This document shows, piece after piece, positions 4,541 to 54,722 of a DNA stretch of 64,000 nucleotides. The notes beneath the pieces are model-generated. The model searched no databases. It was given only the letters and a program-made list of their open reading frames with translations, and had not been told where the DNA came from. Source of the stretch: Gottschalkia acidurici 9a (GTDB taxonomy: Bacteria > Bacillota > Clostridia > Tissierellales > Gottschalkiaceae); assembly GCF_000299355.1 (NCBI RefSeq), contig NC_018664.1, positions 2,216,380 through 2,280,379 of the forward strand, given 5' to 3'. Each line of letters opens with the position of its first letter. Position 1 is the first letter of the stretch. Both the position numbers and the translations under genes were made by a program.

Positions 4541-4695
4541 TTCCTGCTACTCAAAATATGGTCAAATGTATTCATATTGAGATTATTCTTGTTTCATAGA
4601 ACCTCTCCTTGCCTAAGCTACTACGATTTGGTATGGTTCTCCACAAGCTTTAATTCCGAAGTTAGCCCTCCGTACATATATAAGTGCTTTTCAAT
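4541..4695 (-). ncRNA. Candidate omega/reRNA and right end of the TnpB element
   Basis: The sequence after the tnpB stop, read on the minus strand, contains blocks I recognise from TnpB right ends: TACGGAGGGCTAACTTCGG, GTGGAGAACCATACC, and finally GGAGAGG followed by ATGAAACAAGAA. In known TnpB systems this region becomes the guide-carrying RNA. An imperfect hairpin (4550-4581, CTCAATATG paired with CATATTTTGAG through a bulge) follows, and the element probably ends near the GG at 4543-4544, since IS607 elements join at GG dinucleotides. The guide would then begin inside the start region of the kinase at 1418-4537. The exact end is inferred. Confidence 0.6.
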
Positions 4696-29045: not shown

Positions 29046-30224
29046 TTGGACAATGAAGAAAGTTTAAAACTCAGTAACAGTTTAATTCTTTTAATGGTAA
29101 TAACTTGCGGTGTATCCGTAGCAAACATTTACTATAATCAACCTATACTTGGTGACCTAGCAAGATATTTTAATGTTTCAACTAAAAGTATAGGATTGGT
29201 TTCTACTTTCACACAAATAGGTTATGGACTAGGAATGTTATTTATTGTTCCATTGGGAGATATTAAAGAACGTAAGTCTTTAATTATTAATATGTTATTT
29301 ATTTCAACCATTTCTTTAGTTTTATTTGGTATTTCTATGAATTTTTATTGGTTACTAGTCTCAAGCTTTTTAGTTGGTTTTTCATCAATTATAACACAAC
29401 TTATCGTTCCTTTTGCTGCTAGTTTAGCTAATCCTAATGAAAGTGGTGCTGTAATTGGTAAGGTTTTAAGCGGAGCTTTAGTAGGTATTCTTTTGGCTAG
29501 AACCATAAGTGGATTTGTTGGATCTCGCTTTGGATTTAGGATTATATTTTTTTCAGCCGCACTTCTTATGTTGCTTTTATCTTTTACTCTGAAAAAATTA
29601 TTACCTTCAAGTTTACCTACTTCTAGTGATAAATATATTAATATAATGGGATCTCTTTTTAGTATATTTAAAAATAATTCTATTGTAAGATCGTCTTCCA
29701 TAATAGGAGCTATGATGTTTGCATCCTTTAGTGTATTCTGGACTACTTTGATTTTTCATTTGGAATCTCCTTCTTATAATCTTGGTGCAAAAGAAGCTGG
29801 GTTGTTTAGCTTGGTAGGAATTACAGGCGTGCTTTTTACTCCGTTAACAGGTAAATTAAGTGATAAAAAGTCTCCTAGATTTACAGTAGGACTTTCTATA
29901 TTTGTTGTTATTCTATCTTATTTTGTTCTACTTCTCTTTGGAGAAAATATTTTCGGATTAATTTTAGGTGTAATTTTACTAGATTTAGGAATTTCTTCTG
30001 GACAAGTATCAAATCAAGCTATGATACATAGTTTGAATTCAGAAGCTAAAAATAGATTTAACACTATTTTTATGTTTCTATATTTTTCAGGTGGATCTAT
30101 CGGTTCCTTTTTAGGAACGTTTAGCTGGAATAAGTTTGGATGGGCTGGAGTATGTATAGCAGGTCTTTTATTATTATTTGTTGCTTTAATAACATACTGT
30201 ACTATGAGAAGAAAAAACAACTGA
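29046..30224 (+). CDS. MFS transporter (arabinose efflux/DHA1-like)
   Basis: Twelve-TM major facilitator of 392 aa. Recognisable segments are the TM1/TM2 region NIYYNQPILGDLARYFNVS, the loop 2-3 motif GMLFIVPLGDIKERKSL, TM5 GKVLSGALVGILLARTISGF (motif C region) and the repeat in the second half GKLSDKKSPRFTVG. GGGAGG stands 8 nt before TTG at 29046, and no in-frame ATG is nearby, so TTG is the start. It is followed by an exonuclease gene at 36 bp. Drug or metabolite efflux is likely; the substrate is unknown. Confidence 0.88.
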   Translation: MDNEESLKLSNSLILLMVITCGVSVANIYYNQPILGDLARYFNVSTKSIGLVSTFTQIGYGLGMLFIVPLGDIKERKSLIINMLFISTISLVLFGISMNFYWLLVSSFLVGFSSIITQLIVPFAASLANPNESGAVIGKVLSGALVGILLARTISGFVGSRFGFRIIFFSAALLMLLLSFTLKKLLPSSLPTSSDKYINIMGSLFSIFKNNSIVRSSSIIGAMMFASFSVFWTTLIFHLESPSYNLGAKEAGLFSLVGITGVLFTPLTGKLSDKKSPRFTVGLSIFVVILSYFVLLLFGENIFGLILGVILLDLGISSGQVSNQAMIHSLNSEAKNRFNTIFMFLYFSGGSIGSFLGTFSWNKFGWAGVCIAGLLLLFVALITYCTMRRKNN

Positions 30225-30259
30225 TAAAGAATTTGTGATTATATTTAGGAGTGAATAAT

Positions 30260-31048
30260 TTGAACTATATTATATTCGATTTAGAATTTAATCAAGGCTA
30301 TAAATATAGAAGAAAGAGCAAGCATAATAAAAGGGACTTAGTAAACCCAAGTTGTCCCTTTGAGATAATTCAAATAGGTGCAGTAAAACTTGATGATAAC
30401 TTAGAGCTAATTTCTACTCTAGATAGACTAGTTAAACCTGAAATATATACTAATATTCATCACTTTATATCAGAGATGACTGGTATAACTATAGATATGT
30501 TGGAGTATGCAAAGTCTTTCAAAGACATCTATAAAGAGTTTGTTGACTTTATAGGAACAGATAGTGTTTTATGCCCTTGGGGTGCAGGTGACATAAGGGA
30601 ACTAATTAGAAATATCAACTTTCATGGTTTAGATATATCATTAATTCCTAGCCTATATATTGATGTTCAGAAGCATGCATCTAAGCATCTTAATACTCCT
30701 AAGGGAAATTGTATAGGTCTAGAAAATGCTGCAAAGGCATTCGATATTCCTATAAAAAATGAATTTCATGATGCCTTCAATGATGCATTTTATACAGCTG
30801 AAATATTCAAAAAAATATATAGTAAAGACATTAGTCCTAGCGTTTATAATATGAGTGAAAATAGTAGCAAAAATGTTAGACCACTAAGAATTAAGTCTCA
30901 AAAGACAAAACTTGATTTTGATAGCTTGGTAAAGCAGTTTGAGAAAATGTATAATAAGAAAATGACTAAAAGAGAAAAATCTATTATAAAGTTAGCTTAT
31001 ACAATGGGAAGAACTGGTCAATTTCAGGTTGATGATTCAGAAGAATAA
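30260..31048 (+). CDS. DEDDh 3'-5' exonuclease (KapD/ERI1-like)
   Basis: The 262-aa protein has the DEDD nuclease motifs: exo I NYIIFDLEFNQGY (Asp and Glu), exo II in LCPWGAGDIRELIRN, exo III HDAFNDAFYTAEIF. A C-terminal tail (190-262) is basic. The frame opens at GTG 30251, but TAGGAGTG overlaps that codon and fits the TTG at 30260, giving MNYIIFDLEF, the usual start of the family. Related enzymes include KapD and the RNA-processing ERI1 group, so single-stranded RNA or DNA ends are the expected substrate. Confidence 0.87.
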   Translation: MNYIIFDLEFNQGYKYRRKSKHNKRDLVNPSCPFEIIQIGAVKLDDNLELISTLDRLVKPEIYTNIHHFISEMTGITIDMLEYAKSFKDIYKEFVDFIGTDSVLCPWGAGDIRELIRNINFHGLDISLIPSLYIDVQKHASKHLNTPKGNCIGLENAAKAFDIPIKNEFHDAFNDAFYTAEIFKKIYSKDISPSVYNMSENSSKNVRPLRIKSQKTKLDFDSLVKQFEKMYNKKMTKREKSIIKLAYTMGRTGQFQVDDSEE

Positions 31049-33582: not shown

Positions 33583-33806
33583 AAAACCCTTCTACTCTTA
33601 TAGAGACGAAGGGTTTGTTCGCGGTACCACTCTATTTGACAGCAATTTTTACTATCCACTCAAAAGACTATAACGGGTCAATCCGACTAAGACTACTATA
33701 CTTTCATCCTAGTAAGCTCAGAGACGAGTTCAGATGTAGTTATTACTATTTTCCACCTATCAATAGCTCTCTATAAATAACTTTCAACCTACTATTTCTC
33801 TTCAAT
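33583..33806 (-). ncRNA. T-box riboswitch, leucine specifier
   Basis: On the minus strand the leader contains the T-box sequence AGAGTGGTACCGCGAA (about 33617-33633), directly followed by the terminator stem AACCCTTC / GAAGGGTTTT (33584-33616). Stem I begins with AGAGAGCTATTGATAGGTGG; in the specifier region GAACTCGTCTCT the codon CTC (33726-33728) specifies Leu, matching leuS downstream. Uncharged tRNA-Leu(GAG) would stabilise the antiterminator. Confidence 0.92.
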
Positions 33807-33809
33807 GCA

Positions 33810-33838
33810 AATGTATCATTTTTAATGTATTTTATCAA
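33810..33838 (-). promoter_or_regulatory. Promoter of the T-box-leuS transcript
   Basis: Minus strand TTGATA (33833-33838), 17-bp spacer, TACATT (33810-33815), immediately upstream of the T-box start. Confidence 0.65.
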
Positions 33839-48613: not shown

Positions 48614-48650
48614 AGAGTTATAAACTCTTAAGAGTTTATAACTCTTTTTA
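48614..48650 (-). terminator. Terminator after the HesB-like gene
   Basis: AGAGTTATAAACTCT and AGAGTTTATAACTCT pair perfectly around TA, with A/T runs at both sides; 24 bp beyond the gene's stop. Confidence 0.9.
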
Positions 48651-48673: not shown

Positions 48674-48943
48674 TTATTTAGAATAATTTATAATGAAGTC
48701 ATCTCCCCATGGAAAATTGCCATAGTCAATATTTATATAGGGAGTTTTATTTACTGTCTTTTTATCTATAAACACGTTAACTCCTTCTACATCGAACATT
48801 TCATCATTCTCTGTAGGCTCATCCTGAACCCAATCAAAGGCAACCCCCATTCAAGATTTTCTTGATACATAAAACCTTACATTTTGTCCTGACAGTTCTT
48901 CATGAAGTTTTTCTTTTGCTTCATCTGTAATATTAAACTTCAT
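48674..48943 (-). CDS. HesB/IscA-like protein, probable selenoprotein (UGA at codon 31)
   Basis: The ATG at 48941-48943 is 8 nt from AAGGAG. The frame is 89 codons with one internal TGA (48851-48853, codon 31). Both sides are HesB-like: MKFNITDEAKEKLHEELSGQ, NVRFYVSRKS-U-MGVAFDW, then VQDEPTENDEMFDVEGVNVF and YINIDYG. Aligned on the downstream DE(P), the UGA falls exactly where IscA/HesB relatives have the Cys of GCSGP. HesB-like selenoproteins are a known family in clostridia. A 7-bp stem (48814-48832) with a 5-nt loop AGGAU begins 19 nt after the UGA. There is no Cys elsewhere. If Sec is not inserted, the gene is a pseudogene making 30 aa. Confidence 0.65.
48814..48832 (-). promoter_or_regulatory. 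Candidate bacterial SECIS stem-loop
   Basis: RNA UGGGUUC and GAGCCUA pair (two G-U) around the loop AGGAU. The loop starts 26 nt after the UGA and has G as its second base, in line with the loose bacterial SECIS rules (loop 16-37 nt from UGA, G in the first two loop bases). Confidence 0.5.
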
Positions 48944-49076
48944 TTTCATCACTCCTTAATTTTGAGTTTATTTTCTTACTTATCTTATACCCTTTTTATC
49001 ATTTTATAACCTTTTTATTTTTGTATATTTAAATATCCAAATGTTACGATGTTATTTTATCATAATAACAATATAT

Positions 49077-49967
49077 CTAAAAGTAGTTTTTTGAATATTC
49101 CTTGAGCATATCTATAAACACTCTGGCGATCGTAGACGTTTTACTACCTTTAGGATAAATATATGAAAAATCTCTTGTATACTTGTCATCCATAGGTATT
49201 AAACGTATATTGTCATATTTCAATTCTTCTTCTACTACTAGTGATGATATAAAGGTAATTCCTAAATTATTTTTTACTGTTTCTTTTATAGCATAGTTAC
49301 TTCCAAGCACTATTATGCTTTTCGGACTTATTTTATTTTTCAATAAAAAAAGATCTAGCTGTTCTCTACTTCCAGAACCTTTTTCTCTTCCTATCCATAC
49401 TTGATTCTCAATATATTCCTTTGAAATTTTATTTTTTAAAATAGGATTATTTTTACCTACTGCTAAGACTATATTATCTTCATATATACTTTCATATGTA
49501 AATTTATTTTTATTAACTGTTCCTTCTATTAATCCTAAATCCAATTCATAATTTTCTACTTTCTCACATATATGAGATGTATTTTCTATAGTAATGTACA
49601 ACTCTATATCTTTATATTTTTCCCTAAATACACCTAAAAACGATGGAATAAAATACTCTCCTAATGTAAAACTACAACCTATATGCAGTACCCCTTTCAT
49701 TTTGCTTTCATATCCACTTAATTCCTCTTTAGTTTCTTCTAGAATATTTATAATCTTTTTAGCTTTCTCATACAATAGTTTTCCTTGTTTTGTTATGAAT
49801 ATCTTTTTTTGCTTAACAGACCTTTGTATAAGAGTTGTTTCAAAGTATTGCTCAAGATTTTTTATATGAAGACTCACGCTTGGTTGTGAAAGACCGATTT
49901 TCTCCCCTGCTTTTGTGAAGTTATTGCATTCAACGACACATATAAATGTTTTTAACTCTTCTATCAT
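49077..49967 (-). CDS. LysR-family regulator (CysL/YeiE-like)
   Basis: The 296-aa regulator starts with the LysR winged helix (MIEELKTFICVVECNNFTKA, GEKIGLSQPSVSLHIKNLEQ, YFETTLIQRS) and continues with a periplasmic-binding-protein-like effector domain (about 90-296). The frame is open to 49997, but AAGGAG lies 9 nt before ATG 49965-49967, so this start is used. It is divergent from a YeiH-family transporter; LysR-YeiH pairs of this type are common and often linked to sulfur compounds, so it probably controls that gene. Confidence 0.92.
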   Translation of the reverse strand: MIEELKTFICVVECNNFTKAGEKIGLSQPSVSLHIKNLEQYFETTLIQRSVKQKKIFITKQGKLLYEKAKKIINILEETKEELSGYESKMKGVLHIGCSFTLGEYFIPSFLGVFREKYKDIELYITIENTSHICEKVENYELDLGLIEGTVNKNKFTYESIYEDNIVLAVGKNNPILKNKISKEYIENQVWIGREKGSGSREQLDLFLLKNKISPKSIIVLGSNYAIKETVKNNLGITFISSLVVEEELKYDNIRLIPMDDKYTRDFSYIYPKGSKTSTIARVFIDMLKEYSKNYF

Positions 49968-50174
49968 TAGATATCTACTCCTTCTTACACTAATCATTAG
50001 TATTCTAAATGATTATTATTAAATATATATATTTTACTTATGATTATATAATTATTATACTTTATTATGCAAATAACTTTAGTATCTCTTGTATTCCTTA
50101 AATAGCTAAACTTTTATTTCTATCTATATTTTCTTAAATCTTATTGTCATAAATAATAAAGGCAGGTGTCTTAT

Positions 50175-51173
50175 ATGAAATACATTAAAATACTCCCTGG
50201 TCTTATAGTTTGTATCTTAATAGCTTACTTAGGACAATTTCTAGGGTCATATATTCCAAGCATTGGTGGTGCATCTATTGCTATTTTTCTTGGTATTTTA
50301 TTAAAAAATACTTTATTAAATAATAAGTTATTTGAAAAAGGAAGCACATTTGCTGAATCTAATCTTTTGTCTTATTCTATAGTCCTACTTGGAGGAACTT
50401 TAAGTGCGAAAACTATTATGCAAATAGGTAATACTGGAGTAACTTTTATAGTTATCCAAATGACTATAACTATACTCGGAGCTATTTTTATAGGTAAAAA
50501 GTTAGGCTTTTCTAAAAAGTTTCGTTTTTTAATGGCAAGTGGTAACGCTGTATGTGGATCGTCAGCTATAGGGGCAACTGCTCCAGCCATAGGAGCTAGT
50601 GATGAGGATAAAAGCATAAGCATAACTATAGTAAACGTAACTGGTACTGTTTTAATGCTGTTACTTCCTTTAATAGCTAAATTTACTTTTTCATATGATA
50701 CAGTTAAAACATCTGCTCTTATAGGTGGAGTTCTTCAGTCAGTTGGACAAGTTGTTGCTAGTGGGAGCATGGTCAGTTTAGATGTAAAGGATTTATCTAC
50801 TATCTTTAAGATAGTTAGAATAATATTTTTAGTTTTTGTTGTTTTATCTTTTAGCATGTTGAATAATGATGGCCTGGACAAAAAAAATATAAAAAATAAA
50901 TCTAAATTGTCAAATATAAAAGTTCCTTGGTATGTTGTTGGCTTTTTTATAATGTGTTTTCTATTTACAGTAGGTATTATTCCTAGCGAAATATCTAGAG
51001 CATTTAAATCTATAAGCAATAGTTTTGAAATAATAGCTCTAGCTGGTATAGGTATGAGAGTTAACTTAAAGTCTCTCATAAAGCAAGGATTTAAAATTTC
51101 TGTTTATGCCATACTTATAGCACTAGTTCAAGTAGTATCTGCTCTTTCATTAATAACTCTTCTTATTTCATAA
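50175..51173 (+). CDS. YeiH/UPF0324-family transporter
   Basis: Membrane protein of 332 aa with about ten TM helices. Family features include SIGGASIAIFLGILLKNTLL, LLSYSIVLLGGTLSAKTI, MASGNAVCGSSAIGATAPAIGA, GGVLQSVGQVVASGSMVS and the C-terminal EIIALAGIGMRVNLKSL. The CGSSAI and GATAPAIGA stretch is the hallmark. The start ATG (50175) is preceded by AGGCAGGTG. Proteins of this family are annotated as putative sulfate exporters; the real substrate is not firmly known. Divergent LysR regulator. Confidence 0.9.
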   Translation: MKYIKILPGLIVCILIAYLGQFLGSYIPSIGGASIAIFLGILLKNTLLNNKLFEKGSTFAESNLLSYSIVLLGGTLSAKTIMQIGNTGVTFIVIQMTITILGAIFIGKKLGFSKKFRFLMASGNAVCGSSAIGATAPAIGASDEDKSISITIVNVTGTVLMLLLPLIAKFTFSYDTVKTSALIGGVLQSVGQVVASGSMVSLDVKDLSTIFKIVRIIFLVFVVLSFSMLNNDGLDKKNIKNKSKLSNIKVPWYVVGFFIMCFLFTVGIIPSEISRAFKSISNSFEIIALAGIGMRVNLKSLIKQGFKISVYAILIALVQVVSALSLITLLIS

Positions 51174-51269: not shown

Positions 51270-52904
51270 TTATTTTTCATTTATTATTTCATTTGTTATT
51301 GCATTTATACTAATTTTTTTATCAAAATCTATACAATATACTAATTTAACTACATCTTGCTTATCTTTATCATTTTCTCGTAATATGTATCTTAGATCGA
51401 AATCATAATTGTTTAATAAAGCTTCATATGCTTCTTCTTTTGTTATAACATTCTGCTTATCTGGGAATTGTCCTATATCATCCCAATCGTAAACGAATGT
51501 CTCTATATCTCCCGTCTCAGGATCTACACGTATGTTAAATCCATTTTCTGCAAAGTATACGTCATTTTCTTTTCTACCAAAGGCAAATTCATGAATACCA
51601 TTGTCTAATACTCTGTCAAACTCCTCTATATAAGATATCTTTTCAAACTTATTTGGATGAACTTTTTTTATAAAGTCTGAAGCTATTTTTAACATATCTT
51701 TTTTTTGATACTTTTCTTCTCTTTTTGTTTCATACTTTCTTTTGTTAAAGGATTTAACCTCTTTAGTTTTTAAATCAATTCTTACATCAATATGATCTAA
51801 TACATAATCATTTTTATTTTCTACGTTTCTAAACCGTAATTCCAACACATGATTACTAGCATTATGTTCTTGGTACAACAAATACGCACCATATATTCTA
51901 TAATTTTTATCAATATTTACAAAATCTCTAGCTATTTTTTCTGCCTCTTTTTCACTTATCATACTATATTTTTCTTTTTGAGTTGAAGGTTCTTTATAAA
52001 AATATGCTTTACCTGTGGAAAAATTTCTATTTTTATTTTTAGTGTAATAATCTAAGGTTTCTTTAGTTTTAGCGTCTATCAATTTAGATGGATCTTTTAT
52101 AGAGTAAGATAAATAGGGATTTTGGGTCTTATAGTCTAGTTCGTATAAAAGTTGTAAATCTACATTATCTTTGAATATTTTTTTTGCTTCATCTTCTGAT
52201 AGTATGTTTGACTTATTTGGTAAAACCATATCCTTATCTGATGATTTTACCATACCTATTAAGTCTTTCATTGTTGGACCAATCTGTATCATTCCAATAT
52301 CTCCAGTATAACTGTTTAATGTAACATACATACCGTTTTCATAAAAAGGTATATTATCTTCTTTTCTTATATAACTTATATCTATATGGTCTTGATTTAT
52401 TTCTTTAATTTCATCAATTTCAATTTTTTTTAATATTCCAGGACTAACTCTTTCTATATATTTCTCAAAATTTTTAATTGCGTCTTCACTTTTTATTTCA
52501 TCTTTGTTTGCTTCTACGTTATCAATATGATTCATAACATATGAATTATAGTACTTACTTATTGTCCTGTCTTTATTAATACTTATATCCAAAGAAGCAT
52601 CGTCTTTTTCACTTTTCTTAAATGTGACAGAGTAATAGTTTTCTTTCGACCCTTCACTTACGTAGAATTTAGCGCTACTATACTCCTCACCAATACCAAA
52701 TATTGATCTTATCTCCTCTATGAGCTGTTGTTGTAACTCTTCATCTTGCTCTATTAACATATCTAATGGCTTGTCCTTCATAACTATTAATTTACTCTTT
52801 TCTATACTTTTATCTATCGCACTTGCACTGTTACAGCCTGTTGTTATACTAATTATACAGATCATTGGTACTAATGTTTTAACAACCTTTTTTCTAAATT
52901 TCAT
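51270..52904 (-). CDS. YcdB/YcdC-repeat lipoprotein (copy 1)
   Basis: The 544-aa protein has a lipoprotein signal (MKFRKKVVKTLVPMICIISI, lipobox TTGC) and two long halves, each with PepSY/YcdB-like units: ISEKEAEKIARDFVNID, EKYQKKDMLKIASDFIKKVH, and the repeated VDPETGDIETF and LNSYTGDIGMIQ type strands. It is a full-length paralogue of the gene at 53058-54722; the signal peptides align residue by residue, which also sets the start at 52904. The function is not known; the repeats occur in surface proteins and may inhibit or regulate proteases. The two are 142 bp apart in tandem. Confidence 0.78.
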   Translation of the reverse strand: MKFRKKVVKTLVPMICIISITTGCNSASAIDKSIEKSKLIVMKDKPLDMLIEQDEELQQQLIEEIRSIFGIGEEYSSAKFYVSEGSKENYYSVTFKKSEKDDASLDISINKDRTISKYYNSYVMNHIDNVEANKDEIKSEDAIKNFEKYIERVSPGILKKIEIDEIKEINQDHIDISYIRKEDNIPFYENGMYVTLNSYTGDIGMIQIGPTMKDLIGMVKSSDKDMVLPNKSNILSEDEAKKIFKDNVDLQLLYELDYKTQNPYLSYSIKDPSKLIDAKTKETLDYYTKNKNRNFSTGKAYFYKEPSTQKEKYSMISEKEAEKIARDFVNIDKNYRIYGAYLLYQEHNASNHVLELRFRNVENKNDYVLDHIDVRIDLKTKEVKSFNKRKYETKREEKYQKKDMLKIASDFIKKVHPNKFEKISYIEEFDRVLDNGIHEFAFGRKENDVYFAENGFNIRVDPETGDIETFVYDWDDIGQFPDKQNVITKEEAYEALLNNYDFDLRYILRENDKDKQDVVKLVYCIDFDKKISINAITNEIINEK

Positions 52905-53057
52905 TATCCATACCAATCCTTTCTAGACCATTTTATAATCTAAATATTTAAATGCATAAATGATAGAATAAAATAGCTAATTGTATTAATTAATGTAGCA
53001 AGAAAGTTATCTTACAATTGTTTTATCTTTTCTATTCATTCTTATTTCCTTATATTA

Positions 53058-54722
53058 TTATTTTACTTTTATTATTTTCTCATCATTTTCACCTAGTACC
53101 TCACCTGTTCTAGCATCTAGACTAATTTCTTTATAAAAATCTACCCCATATACTAGTTTAATTATATTTCTTTTACCTTTATCATCTTCTAGTATCGTAT
53201 ATCTTAAATCAAAATCATAATTGTTTAATAGAGTTTCATATGCCTCTTCTTTTGTTATGATATCCTGCTTATCTGAAAATTCATCTATATTATCCCAGTC
53301 ATAAAAAAAGCCTACTATATCTCCTGTTTGAGGGTCTACATCTACAATAAATCCATTCTCTATAAAGTGTATGCCATTTTCTATTCTACTAATTTTAAAT
53401 CTATGTATTCCATTACTTAACTCTTCATCTCCTATATAAGATGTCTTTTCAAACTTTTCTGGATGAGCCTTTTTTGTAAAGTCTTTAGCTAGTTTTAATG
53501 TATCTTTTTTATTATATTTTTCCTCTCTTTTGCCTTCATACTTTCTTTTATTGAAAGATCTAACTTCTTTAGTTCTAGCGTTAACATTTACTACAACAAT
53601 GTCTAATGCATCATCTGTATCTCCATTTCTGTCCCAAAATCTTAACTCCCATAGCCAATCATCAGTATCATATTTATTACGCAGTATGTATACATCCATA
53701 TCTTTATTTTCTATTTTATAATTTTCACCAATATCCAAATACTCTCTAGCTATCTCTTCCGCCTCTTTTTCACTTATCATACTGTCTTTTTCTTTTTGAG
53801 TTAAAGGTTCTTCATAGTAATAATAACTTTTACCCATACGTAAACTTATCCTTTCGTCCTCAGAATAATAGTCTAGAGTTTTTTTGGTTTTAGCATCGAT
53901 TAAACTAGATGGATTTTTTATAGAATAAAATAAATATGGCACCTTAGTTTTATAGTCTAGTTTATATAGCAATTCTAAACCTACTTTATCTTTAAATATC
54001 TTTTTTGCTTCATCCTTTGATATTATATTTTCTTTATCTGGTATTACCATATTATCATTTACCACCCCCGCTGTTTCTAGTAGGCTGTTAGTAGCCGAAT
54101 TAAATTGAATACTTGTAATTTCTCCAGTATTACTATTTAAAGAAGCGTACAGTGTATCGTTAAAAAATTGTACACCATTTTCTTTTCTTACATAATCTAG
54201 ACGTACATAGCTTTGATTTCCTAAATTTATTTTATCTAGTTCAACCTCGTCTAATATTCCAGGACTAATCTTTTCCATATACTGCTCAAAATTTTTAATA
54301 TATTTTTCTTGTTCATTTTTACTTATATTTGCTTTTAACTCATAAACATCTTGATTTCTATACGGATCAATATACGTATTATCATATCTAGTTATAATCA
54401 TATCTTTGTTTAAAAACACACTAATAGCTTTTGAGTCTTTTTCATTCTTTTTAAAGACTACATCATAACCTTCAAATACCTTAAATTTAGTATATTTATA
54501 TTCTTCTCCAATATCAAAAATTATTCTAAGCTTTTCTATAAGCTTTTGCTGTAGCTCTTCATCTTGTTCTATTAGGACATCTAATGGCTTGTCTTCCATA
54601 ACTATTAGTTTACTCTTCTCTATATTTTTATCTATAGCACTTACGCTGTTACATCCTGTAGTTATGCTAACTATGCACACCATCGGTATTCCTATCCTTA
54701 TGATAGTTTTTTTAAGTCTCAT
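53058..54722 (-). CDS. YcdB/YcdC-repeat lipoprotein (copy 2)
   Basis: The 554-aa protein begins MRLKKTIIRIGIPMVCIVSI and the lipobox TTGC, and shares blocks with copy 1 such as CNS-SAIDK-IEKSKLIVM-DKPL, ISEKEAEEIAREYLDIGENY and YDFDLRY. It is secreted and lipid-anchored, with beta-strands VDPQTGDIVGFFYDWD and NSNTGEITSIQFN. It is the upstream copy on the minus strand, so a tandem duplication has occurred. Function unknown. A terminator-like stem lies upstream, so both copies may be expressed from their own promoters. Confidence 0.78.
   Translation of the reverse strand: MRLKKTIIRIGIPMVCIVSITTGCNSVSAIDKNIEKSKLIVMEDKPLDVLIEQDEELQQKLIEKLRIIFDIGEEYKYTKFKVFEGYDVVFKKNEKDSKAISVFLNKDMIITRYDNTYIDPYRNQDVYELKANISKNEQEKYIKNFEQYMEKISPGILDEVELDKINLGNQSYVRLDYVRKENGVQFFNDTLYASLNSNTGEITSIQFNSATNSLLETAGVVNDNMVIPDKENIISKDEAKKIFKDKVGLELLYKLDYKTKVPYLFYSIKNPSSLIDAKTKKTLDYYSEDERISLRMGKSYYYYEEPLTQKEKDSMISEKEAEEIAREYLDIGENYKIENKDMDVYILRNKYDTDDWLWELRFWDRNGDTDDALDIVVVNVNARTKEVRSFNKRKYEGKREEKYNKKDTLKLAKDFTKKAHPEKFEKTSYIGDEELSNGIHRFKISRIENGIHFIENGFIVDVDPQTGDIVGFFYDWDNIDEFSDKQDIITKEEAYETLLNNYDFDLRYTILEDDKGKRNIIKLVYGVDFYKEISLDARTGEVLGENDEKIIKVK

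Follow-up and report, generated by a model that had tools for sequence, protein, structure and literature searches.

A divergent clade of HesB-fold proteins with a predicted selenocysteine residue in Gottschalkia acidurici 9a and related genomes

The window analyzed here, a stretch of 64,000 nucleotides from Gottschalkia acidurici 9a, contains a short HesB-like gene whose reading frame carries a single in-frame TGA. The locus raises the question of whether this TGA is decoded as selenocysteine (Sec), breaks the gene or separates two peptides, and what kind of HesB protein would result if it is decoded. HesB-like selenoproteins are already known from papers of 2005 and 2006 (PMC1088965, PMC1794560), and the family is given as TIGR01911 with the Sec motif UxGP in Table 1 of PMC13188914. 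An archaeal member was found in Methanococcus maripaludis by mutagenesis and 75Se labelling, and its function is described as not clear (PMC11097638). The gene and its immediate signals are as follows.

48674..48943, minus strand: HesB/IscA-fold selenoprotein gene, 89 residues, predicted Sec at residue 31 (translation; Pfam Fe-S_biosyn; UGA shared by 7/7 subfamily members)
48851..48853, minus strand: in-frame UGA, codon 31, at the N-terminal ligand Cys position of IscA/HesB (translation, alignment)
48676-48674, minus strand: stop codon TAA of the selenoprotein gene (translation)
48952..48957, minus strand: Shine-Dalgarno sequence AAGGAG, 8 nt 5' of the ATG (sequence)
48614..48645, minus strand: terminator-like hairpin directly 3' of the selenoprotein gene, 14 pairs followed by a T-rich tail (scan against shuffles)

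The frame begins with an ATG at 48943 and runs for 89 codons to the TAA, with the TGA at codon 31 as its sole interruption. The intact 89-codon gene, the good ribosome binding site and the single TGA described in an earlier sequence-only reading were thus all seen, on the minus strand, which that reading had left unstated. The whole frame including the UGA matches the Pfam family Fe-S_biosyn (PF01521; 29.9 bits against a cut-off of 26.3, E 7e-7, residues 1-65), and the HesB-type similarity noticed earlier on both sides of the TGA therefore holds across the codon. The TGA sits 10 residues ahead of D41 and 11 ahead of E42 in the DEP motif, in line with the earlier count of 11 residues upstream of DE(P). 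One terminator-like hairpin was found 3' of the gene where 0.2 were expected from shuffles, and the promoter scan did not point to a promoter of its own (3 promoter-like sites versus 5.5 expected). A scan of the window for one-TGA frames, with a minimum length of 75 codons and only slight overlap with open reading frames elsewhere, left 3 candidates, this gene among them. Another of these is a 302-codon frame (30140-31048, plus strand) with a TGA at codon 33; its exonuclease match (RNase_T, 61.9 bits) covers residues 73-223, entirely 3' of the TGA, with no match on the 5' side, and this TGA is probably a mere upstream stop.

The genome is able to decode Sec, judged on its gene content. We found a tRNA-Sec (selC) scoring 71.5 bits against a gathering score of 47, as well as SelB (356.6 bits), SelA (626.9 bits) and SelD (401.6 bits), each above its curated cut-off. 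The selA, selB and selD genes form one cluster (2068759-2073155), and selD carries one in-frame TGA of its own. Since all 14 control genomes also gave weak matches to tRNA-Sec, selB and selD, and 4 of them to selA, the family cut-offs decide here, and all four genes pass them. The genome paper of the organism, as Clostridium acidurici 9a, mentions a tRNA for selenocysteine and reports replicons of 3,105,335 and 2,913 bp (PMC3519856). A changed genetic code, in which UGA would specify an ordinary amino acid, seems an unlikely explanation, given the presence of the Sec machinery and one relative (L026) whose stop codon is apparently TGA.

Among 60 genomes searched, one of them the window's own, 30 had a match, and exactly one TGA was present in 33 of the 34 matches listed. 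Translation of 30 loci placed the TGA beside the HesB motif in 29 and a Cys there in one (L029). The seven closest members carry the UGA at one identical column (7/7), and the other members are 42-56% identical to the window protein. These seven genomes span two families of one order, namely four genomes of the window's own family (f1) and three of a second family (f10); other genomes of these families may lack the gene. When a profile of the seven was run against 249 genomes of the order, 127 genomes gave a match; the seven members scored 124-148 bits (E <= 2.1e-36), and the next match followed only at 8.4e-13. Wider draws yielded no further member, either among 391 genomes sampled from the class, where 47 gave some match and the best besides the window's own genome, G000, reached 40.8 bits, or among 398 sampled from the phylum, where 60 did and the best besides G000 reached 58.8 bits; members may exist outside these samples. 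A contig search with the subfamily alignment identified one locus, in an Andreesenia angusta metagenome-assembled genome (MAG), and the same search with the window protein alone gave no confirmed locus.

In a tree of 80 HesB-like rows the seven members form one clade with support of 99/97, on an alignment of only 99 columns that leaves the deeper branching order unsure. The rows represent loci mostly found by their likeness to the window protein or its clade, and long context regions and tRNA-Sec loci were left out of them. No member with Cys turned up in this clade, and Sec/Cys pairs occur only against more distant relatives. Compared with the window protein, the other members retain between 12/30 and 21/30 identical residues before the UGA and between 17/56 and 30/58 after it, the sharpest fall being that of G001 (21/30 to 17/56). 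The protein is thus conserved 3' of the UGA, which would not be expected of a gene that ends there.

These results bear directly on a nonsense mutation, which the sequence-only reading had kept as its alternative and according to which a Cys codon turned into TGA and left a decaying pseudogene. A single change from TGC or TGT would suffice for this. The occurrence of TGA at the same codon in all seven members from two families contradicts it, as do the conserved sequence 3' of the UGA in a frame with no further disruption and the full Sec machinery of the genome, and we regard such decay as highly improbable. Neither of the findings that would have spoken for it, a genome lacking selB or selC and a Cys codon in close relatives, was observed. 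In addition, the genome has a second HesB copy with Cys (C2:129470; L099:1471-1749, plus strand; GSKCSTGEPQ, TGT codon), which is only 28% identical to the TGA copy (22/78); the TGA copy therefore did not arise from it by a recent, failed duplication. It is just as hard to credit a second scheme, in which a 30-residue peptide ends at the UGA and coupled re-initiation at TGAATG yields a 58-residue frame (48850..48674): the window TGA is indeed directly followed by ATG, but the next codon is ATG in only three of the seven members (G000, G002, G003) and GCC in G001 or TCA in G012, G028 and G040, no Shine-Dalgarno sequence is seen by eye ahead of the inner ATG, and two peptides would have to share what is one fold.

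The second Cys-bearing copy has its own history. Six loci with the other HesB copy were read, showing TGA in G002, G012, G028 and G040 and Cys in G000 (TGT) and G001 (TGC); for G003 there was no second HesB match among the matches reported in the search of 249 genomes. If these copies are orthologous within the window's family, the other copy swapped Sec and Cys there, and the TGA copy kept Sec throughout the members found. A stable hairpin (-10.0 kcal/mol) lies 29 nt after the Cys codon of C2:129470 and is perhaps a remnant SECIS left by a Sec-to-Cys change, by analogy with the remnant described for a HesB-like protein of Desulfitobacterium hafniense (PMC1794560).

Bacterial Sec insertion at UGA is associated with a stem-loop, the bacterial SECIS (bSECIS), for which the published limits are a loop of 3-9 nt with G in one of its first two positions, a stem of 4-16 bp, a distance of 16-37 nt from the UGA and a minimum free energy of -7.5 kcal/mol or lower (PMC13188914). 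Folding of the sequence 3' of codon 31 predicted the following elements.

48809..48839, minus strand: predicted bacterial SECIS stem-loop (folding, -11.6 kcal/mol)
48832-48826 / 48820-48814, minus strand: upper stem of the SECIS, 7 bp (folding)
48825-48821, minus strand: apical loop AGGAU of the SECIS (folding)
48839-48835 / 48813-48809, minus strand: lower stem of the SECIS (folding)

The predicted hairpin lies within all of the published limits (a 7-bp upper stem and a 5-nt loop with G in its second position, at 25 nt from the UGA), as had been proposed for a stem-loop with an AGGAU loop in the SECIS range, and its energy of -11.6 kcal/mol, lower stem included, was reached by 5 of 1000 synonymous recodings. 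For the other members the corresponding numbers per 1000 were 125 (G001), 55 (G002), 15 (G003), 8 (G012), 1 (G028) and 15 (G040), so the hairpins of G001 and G002 are weak when taken singly. Summed over the seven members, the hairpin energy is -55.9 kcal/mol versus -18.5 +- 5.5 for synonymous recodings, and none of 1000 recodings was as low. As isolated hairpins, three of the seven (G000, G028, G040) are at -7.5 kcal/mol or below, and the other four range from -5.8 to -6.7. The motif [AU]GGA[UC] occurs at an equal distance from the UGA in all seven members, and the best fold in G003 and G040 closes the loop to GGA. Of the UxGP relatives tested, 12 of 14 had the loop of their best hairpin at this spacing, 25 nt.

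Several controls qualify this picture. Within the window gene, 7 of 69 other codons anchor an equally stable hairpin, and all seven of them see the same hairpin. No rival hairpin as stable exists within the gene in four members (G000, G001, G002, G028), and one or two do in G003, G012 and G040. Base-pair covariation gave no support beyond shuffles, since the stem overlaps conserved codons: 83.7% of cells are paired, a value reached by 189 of 500 shuffles, and 2 pairs are changed on both sides, which 167 of 500 shuffles equalled. The only pairing control in favour of the hairpin is the slid one, with 20-49% paired versus 83.7% at the hairpin itself. Cys-bearing controls numbered two, which makes them a poor control: the window genome's own Cys paralogue (-10.0 kcal/mol; 11 of 200 recodings as low) and another at -1.0.

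Because the UGA is conserved, the Sec machinery is present and the hairpin fits the bSECIS model, Sec is very probably inserted at codon 31 of a divergent HesB-fold protein, as far as this can be judged from sequence. By this reading, SelB with Sec-tRNA-Sec would read the UGA at codon 31, aided by the hairpin just 3' of it, and translation would continue to the TAA and yield an 89-residue selenoprotein. This product would adopt the HesB/IscA fold and carry Sec where relatives have the first conserved Cys, as the sole chalcogen ligand in six of the seven members.

The clade shares with the known HesB-like selenoproteins (TIGR01911, NF038090) the fold, a single Sec at the first conserved Cys and a similar size. 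All seven members match TIGR01911, NF038090 (IscA_HesB_Se) and TIGR00049 at E <= 0.1; however, the window protein scores 29.4 bits against TIGR01911 (cut-off 66.35) and 43.7 bits against NF038090 (cut-off 85), below both. Its Sec motif is UMGV, and the clade as a whole shows UxG[VIN] in 7/7 and UxGP in 0/7. The motif WG[DEN]D is present in all seven members, whereas WGxD occurs in none of the 73 other rows. None of the seven has a Cys among its 16 C-terminal residues, and six of them, the window protein included, have no Cys whatever (G001 has one). From the earlier proposal of a HesB-like selenoprotein, Sec decoding and the HesB fold are accordingly supported, and the standard features of that family (UxGP, a C-terminal Cys, scores above the cut-offs) are not. 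The protein is a HesB-fold member of a separate, divergent clade of HesB-like selenoproteins and not of the standard UxGP type.

Altogether the 80 rows include 65 with an in-frame TGA (the 7 of the clade and 58 others) and 15 Cys forms, of which 10 have a tail Cys. The 58 other TGA rows divide into 43 with UxGP, 41 of them with a tail Cys, and 15 without UxGP, none with a tail Cys. Loss of UxGP and loss of the tail Cys thus coincide (tail Cys in 41/43 UxGP and 0/22 non-UxGP selenoproteins) in tallies that ignore kinship; on the tree, a test for joint change had 3 independent pairs on starred branches to draw on, too few to show a link. Another group with Sec but neither UxGP nor a C-terminal Cys tail, in family f19, comprises the VGUAGY and YSUCGA proteins. 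It differs from the clade described here in forming a separate clade (12 rows, 100/97), in lacking WGxD and, for the YSUCGA members, in having an adjacent Cys. Four f19 loci (L087, L097, L030, L031) have two HesB-like genes per short locus with one in-frame TGA each, one gene of the pair being of the YSUCGA or YTUCGA type and one of the VGU[AS]G type, neither with a C-terminal Cys.

An AlphaFold model built from a two-sequence alignment of the window protein and its Andreesenia relative reached a pLDDT of 79.1; a single-sequence model (pLDDT 54.9) was dropped. The eight best structural matches of the model, at Z 9.8 to 7.9 with a tool for which middling Z values are common and clearly unrelated proteins begin at Z 3.1, include SufA, IscA, AQ_1857, HI1723, DsrR and a YneR-containing model; we take YneR to be related to IscA/HesB-fold proteins. 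In a sequence comparison with solved structures, the Sec falls on the C of CSG in AQ_1857 and E. coli IscA, in line with the placement of the TGA at the conserved Cys.

The comparison with the IscA/SufA/ErpA proteins (PF01521) shows the same fold (Z 9.8 for SufA, 8.5 for IscA) and the same first ligand position. In contrast to them, the proteins of the clade have Sec for Cys at that position and no C-terminal Cys pair, with 18-26% identity in the eight best alignments. IscA-type proteins normally have three Cys per protomer, the first Cys and a C-terminal CxC, that hold iron or a cluster. No such ligand set is available to the window protein, which has no Cys, or to the clade, given the tails described above. 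A classical Fe-S scaffold of the IscA type is unlikely for a protein whose sole chalcogen ligand is Sec, and an IscA-like scaffold role is doubtful. DsrR of Allochromatium vinosum (2k4z) also combines an IscA-like fold with the lack of the usual ligand set, and matches the model at Z 8.4 over 89 residues with 24% identity. According to Grimm et al., DsrR is reportedly an IscA-like protein that lacks iron and Fe-S binding; it differs from the window protein, we assume, in having no Sec and in its dsr-operon context. By analogy with DsrR, this suggests that the HesB/IscA fold can serve other uses.

On the basis of the fold and the position of Sec alone, we tentatively favor a metal or chalcogen role, in which the Sec-centred site would hold a soft metal, whether iron or a toxic one, or a labile chalcogen, or else react with a partner thiol. 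A second, somewhat unlikely reading assigns to the protein a metal-free selenol chemistry, such as redox or peroxide reduction with an outside thiol, or a regulatory function of the DsrR type. The lack of any resolving or tail Cys, with Sec alone in six of the seven members, would suit such a function, and so would the place of DsrR among the best structural matches. A purely structural role sits poorly with a residue as costly and invariant as Sec, which would rather argue for chemistry; no conserved partner gene hints at peroxide defence, and a ferritin-type gene upstream in two of the seven genomes (G001, G003) leans weakly to iron. Still less likely, in our view, is that the divergent protein still works as an Fe-S carrier or scaffold of the A type, as the TIGR01911 family is thought to do. 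The matches to all three families at E <= 0.1, the IscA/SufA fold and the Sec at a ligand Cys speak for this carrier function, but UxGP and the tail Cys are missing from every member of the clade, the latter being present in 41 of 43 UxGP selenoproteins, and the window protein falls well short of both family cut-offs. As for the origin of a Sec-only site, one may tentatively picture a HesB-fold lineage in which the sulfur ligands were lost and a single invariant Sec remained; an Fe-S carrier fold would thereby have taken up a new function, in the handling of metals or chalcogens or in selenol chemistry.

The gene neighborhoods do not settle the function. The genes upstream of the selenoprotein gene in the window are as follows.

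49077..49997, minus strand: LysR-type regulator, upstream of the selenoprotein gene on the same strand (Pfam)
50166-51173, divergent from the LysR gene: Cons_hypoth698 membrane protein, presumably of the YeiH type (Pfam)

No relative of the LysR-type gene is found near the other six members. We considered the LysR protein as a selenium regulator, a type of function represented by the LysR-type regulator HrsM (PMC11097638), and rejected it for lack of evidence, given the divergent membrane-protein gene next to it and the missing relatives just noted. Comparison of open reading frames of at least 70 codons (blastp, E <= 1e-8) revealed no partner family common to the seven neighborhoods. The most widespread neighbor is an ApbE-type gene, present near four of the seven (PF02424 by Pfam for the copy in G001), convergent and close in G001 and G002 and 2.7-2.8 kb off in G028 and G040. 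It is absent within about 9 kb in G000, and little sequence remains on the contigs of G003 and G012 beyond the selenoprotein gene; being convergent, the ApbE-type gene provides weak evidence of partnership. The ferritin gene upstream in G001 (by Pfam) has its relative in G003 and in no other member, and molybdenum-hydroxylase-like genes, named by eye, are likewise upstream in G001 and G003 only. At the loci L105 and L106, the region downstream of the HesB-fold gene holds a relative of the G001 ApbE gene together with three genes named by eye, namely an NADH-dehydrogenase-like and a polyprenyl-synthase-like gene and one for a small lipoprotein of FMN-binding appearance; this set recalls the loci of flavin-based extracellular electron transfer. 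Elsewhere in the window, all on the minus strand, we observed two adjoining, related YcdB/YcdC-repeat (DUF4901) proteins of 548 and 554 aa (51270-54722), likely a tandem duplication, a T-box leader (33599-33814, 151.1 bits) and a RAGATH-18 RNA (4586-4647, 58.6 bits).

None of the article titles and abstract openings on Clostridium acidurici or Gottschalkia with selenium, or on HesB-like selenoproteins, concerned this protein, in a search that covered few subscription papers and no supplements; the portion of PMC11448449 consulted names Gottschalkia and does not mention HesB. What is new here is an intact, divergent subfamily of the known HesB-like selenoproteins and not a new system. Standard gene calling would truncate or overlook such a selenoprotein gene, and the window protein, which scores under the NCBI cut-offs, may be absent from current selenoproteome counts. 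In the counts of PMC13188914 a different Sec motif makes a separate subfamily, and the present clade would add one. If the proposed change of role is true, the division by UxGP and tail Cys would mark two functional classes within one filed family. The clade sharpens the question of what HesB-like selenoproteins do, since its Sec-only members offer the most straightforward way to learn what Sec by itself adds to the HesB fold.
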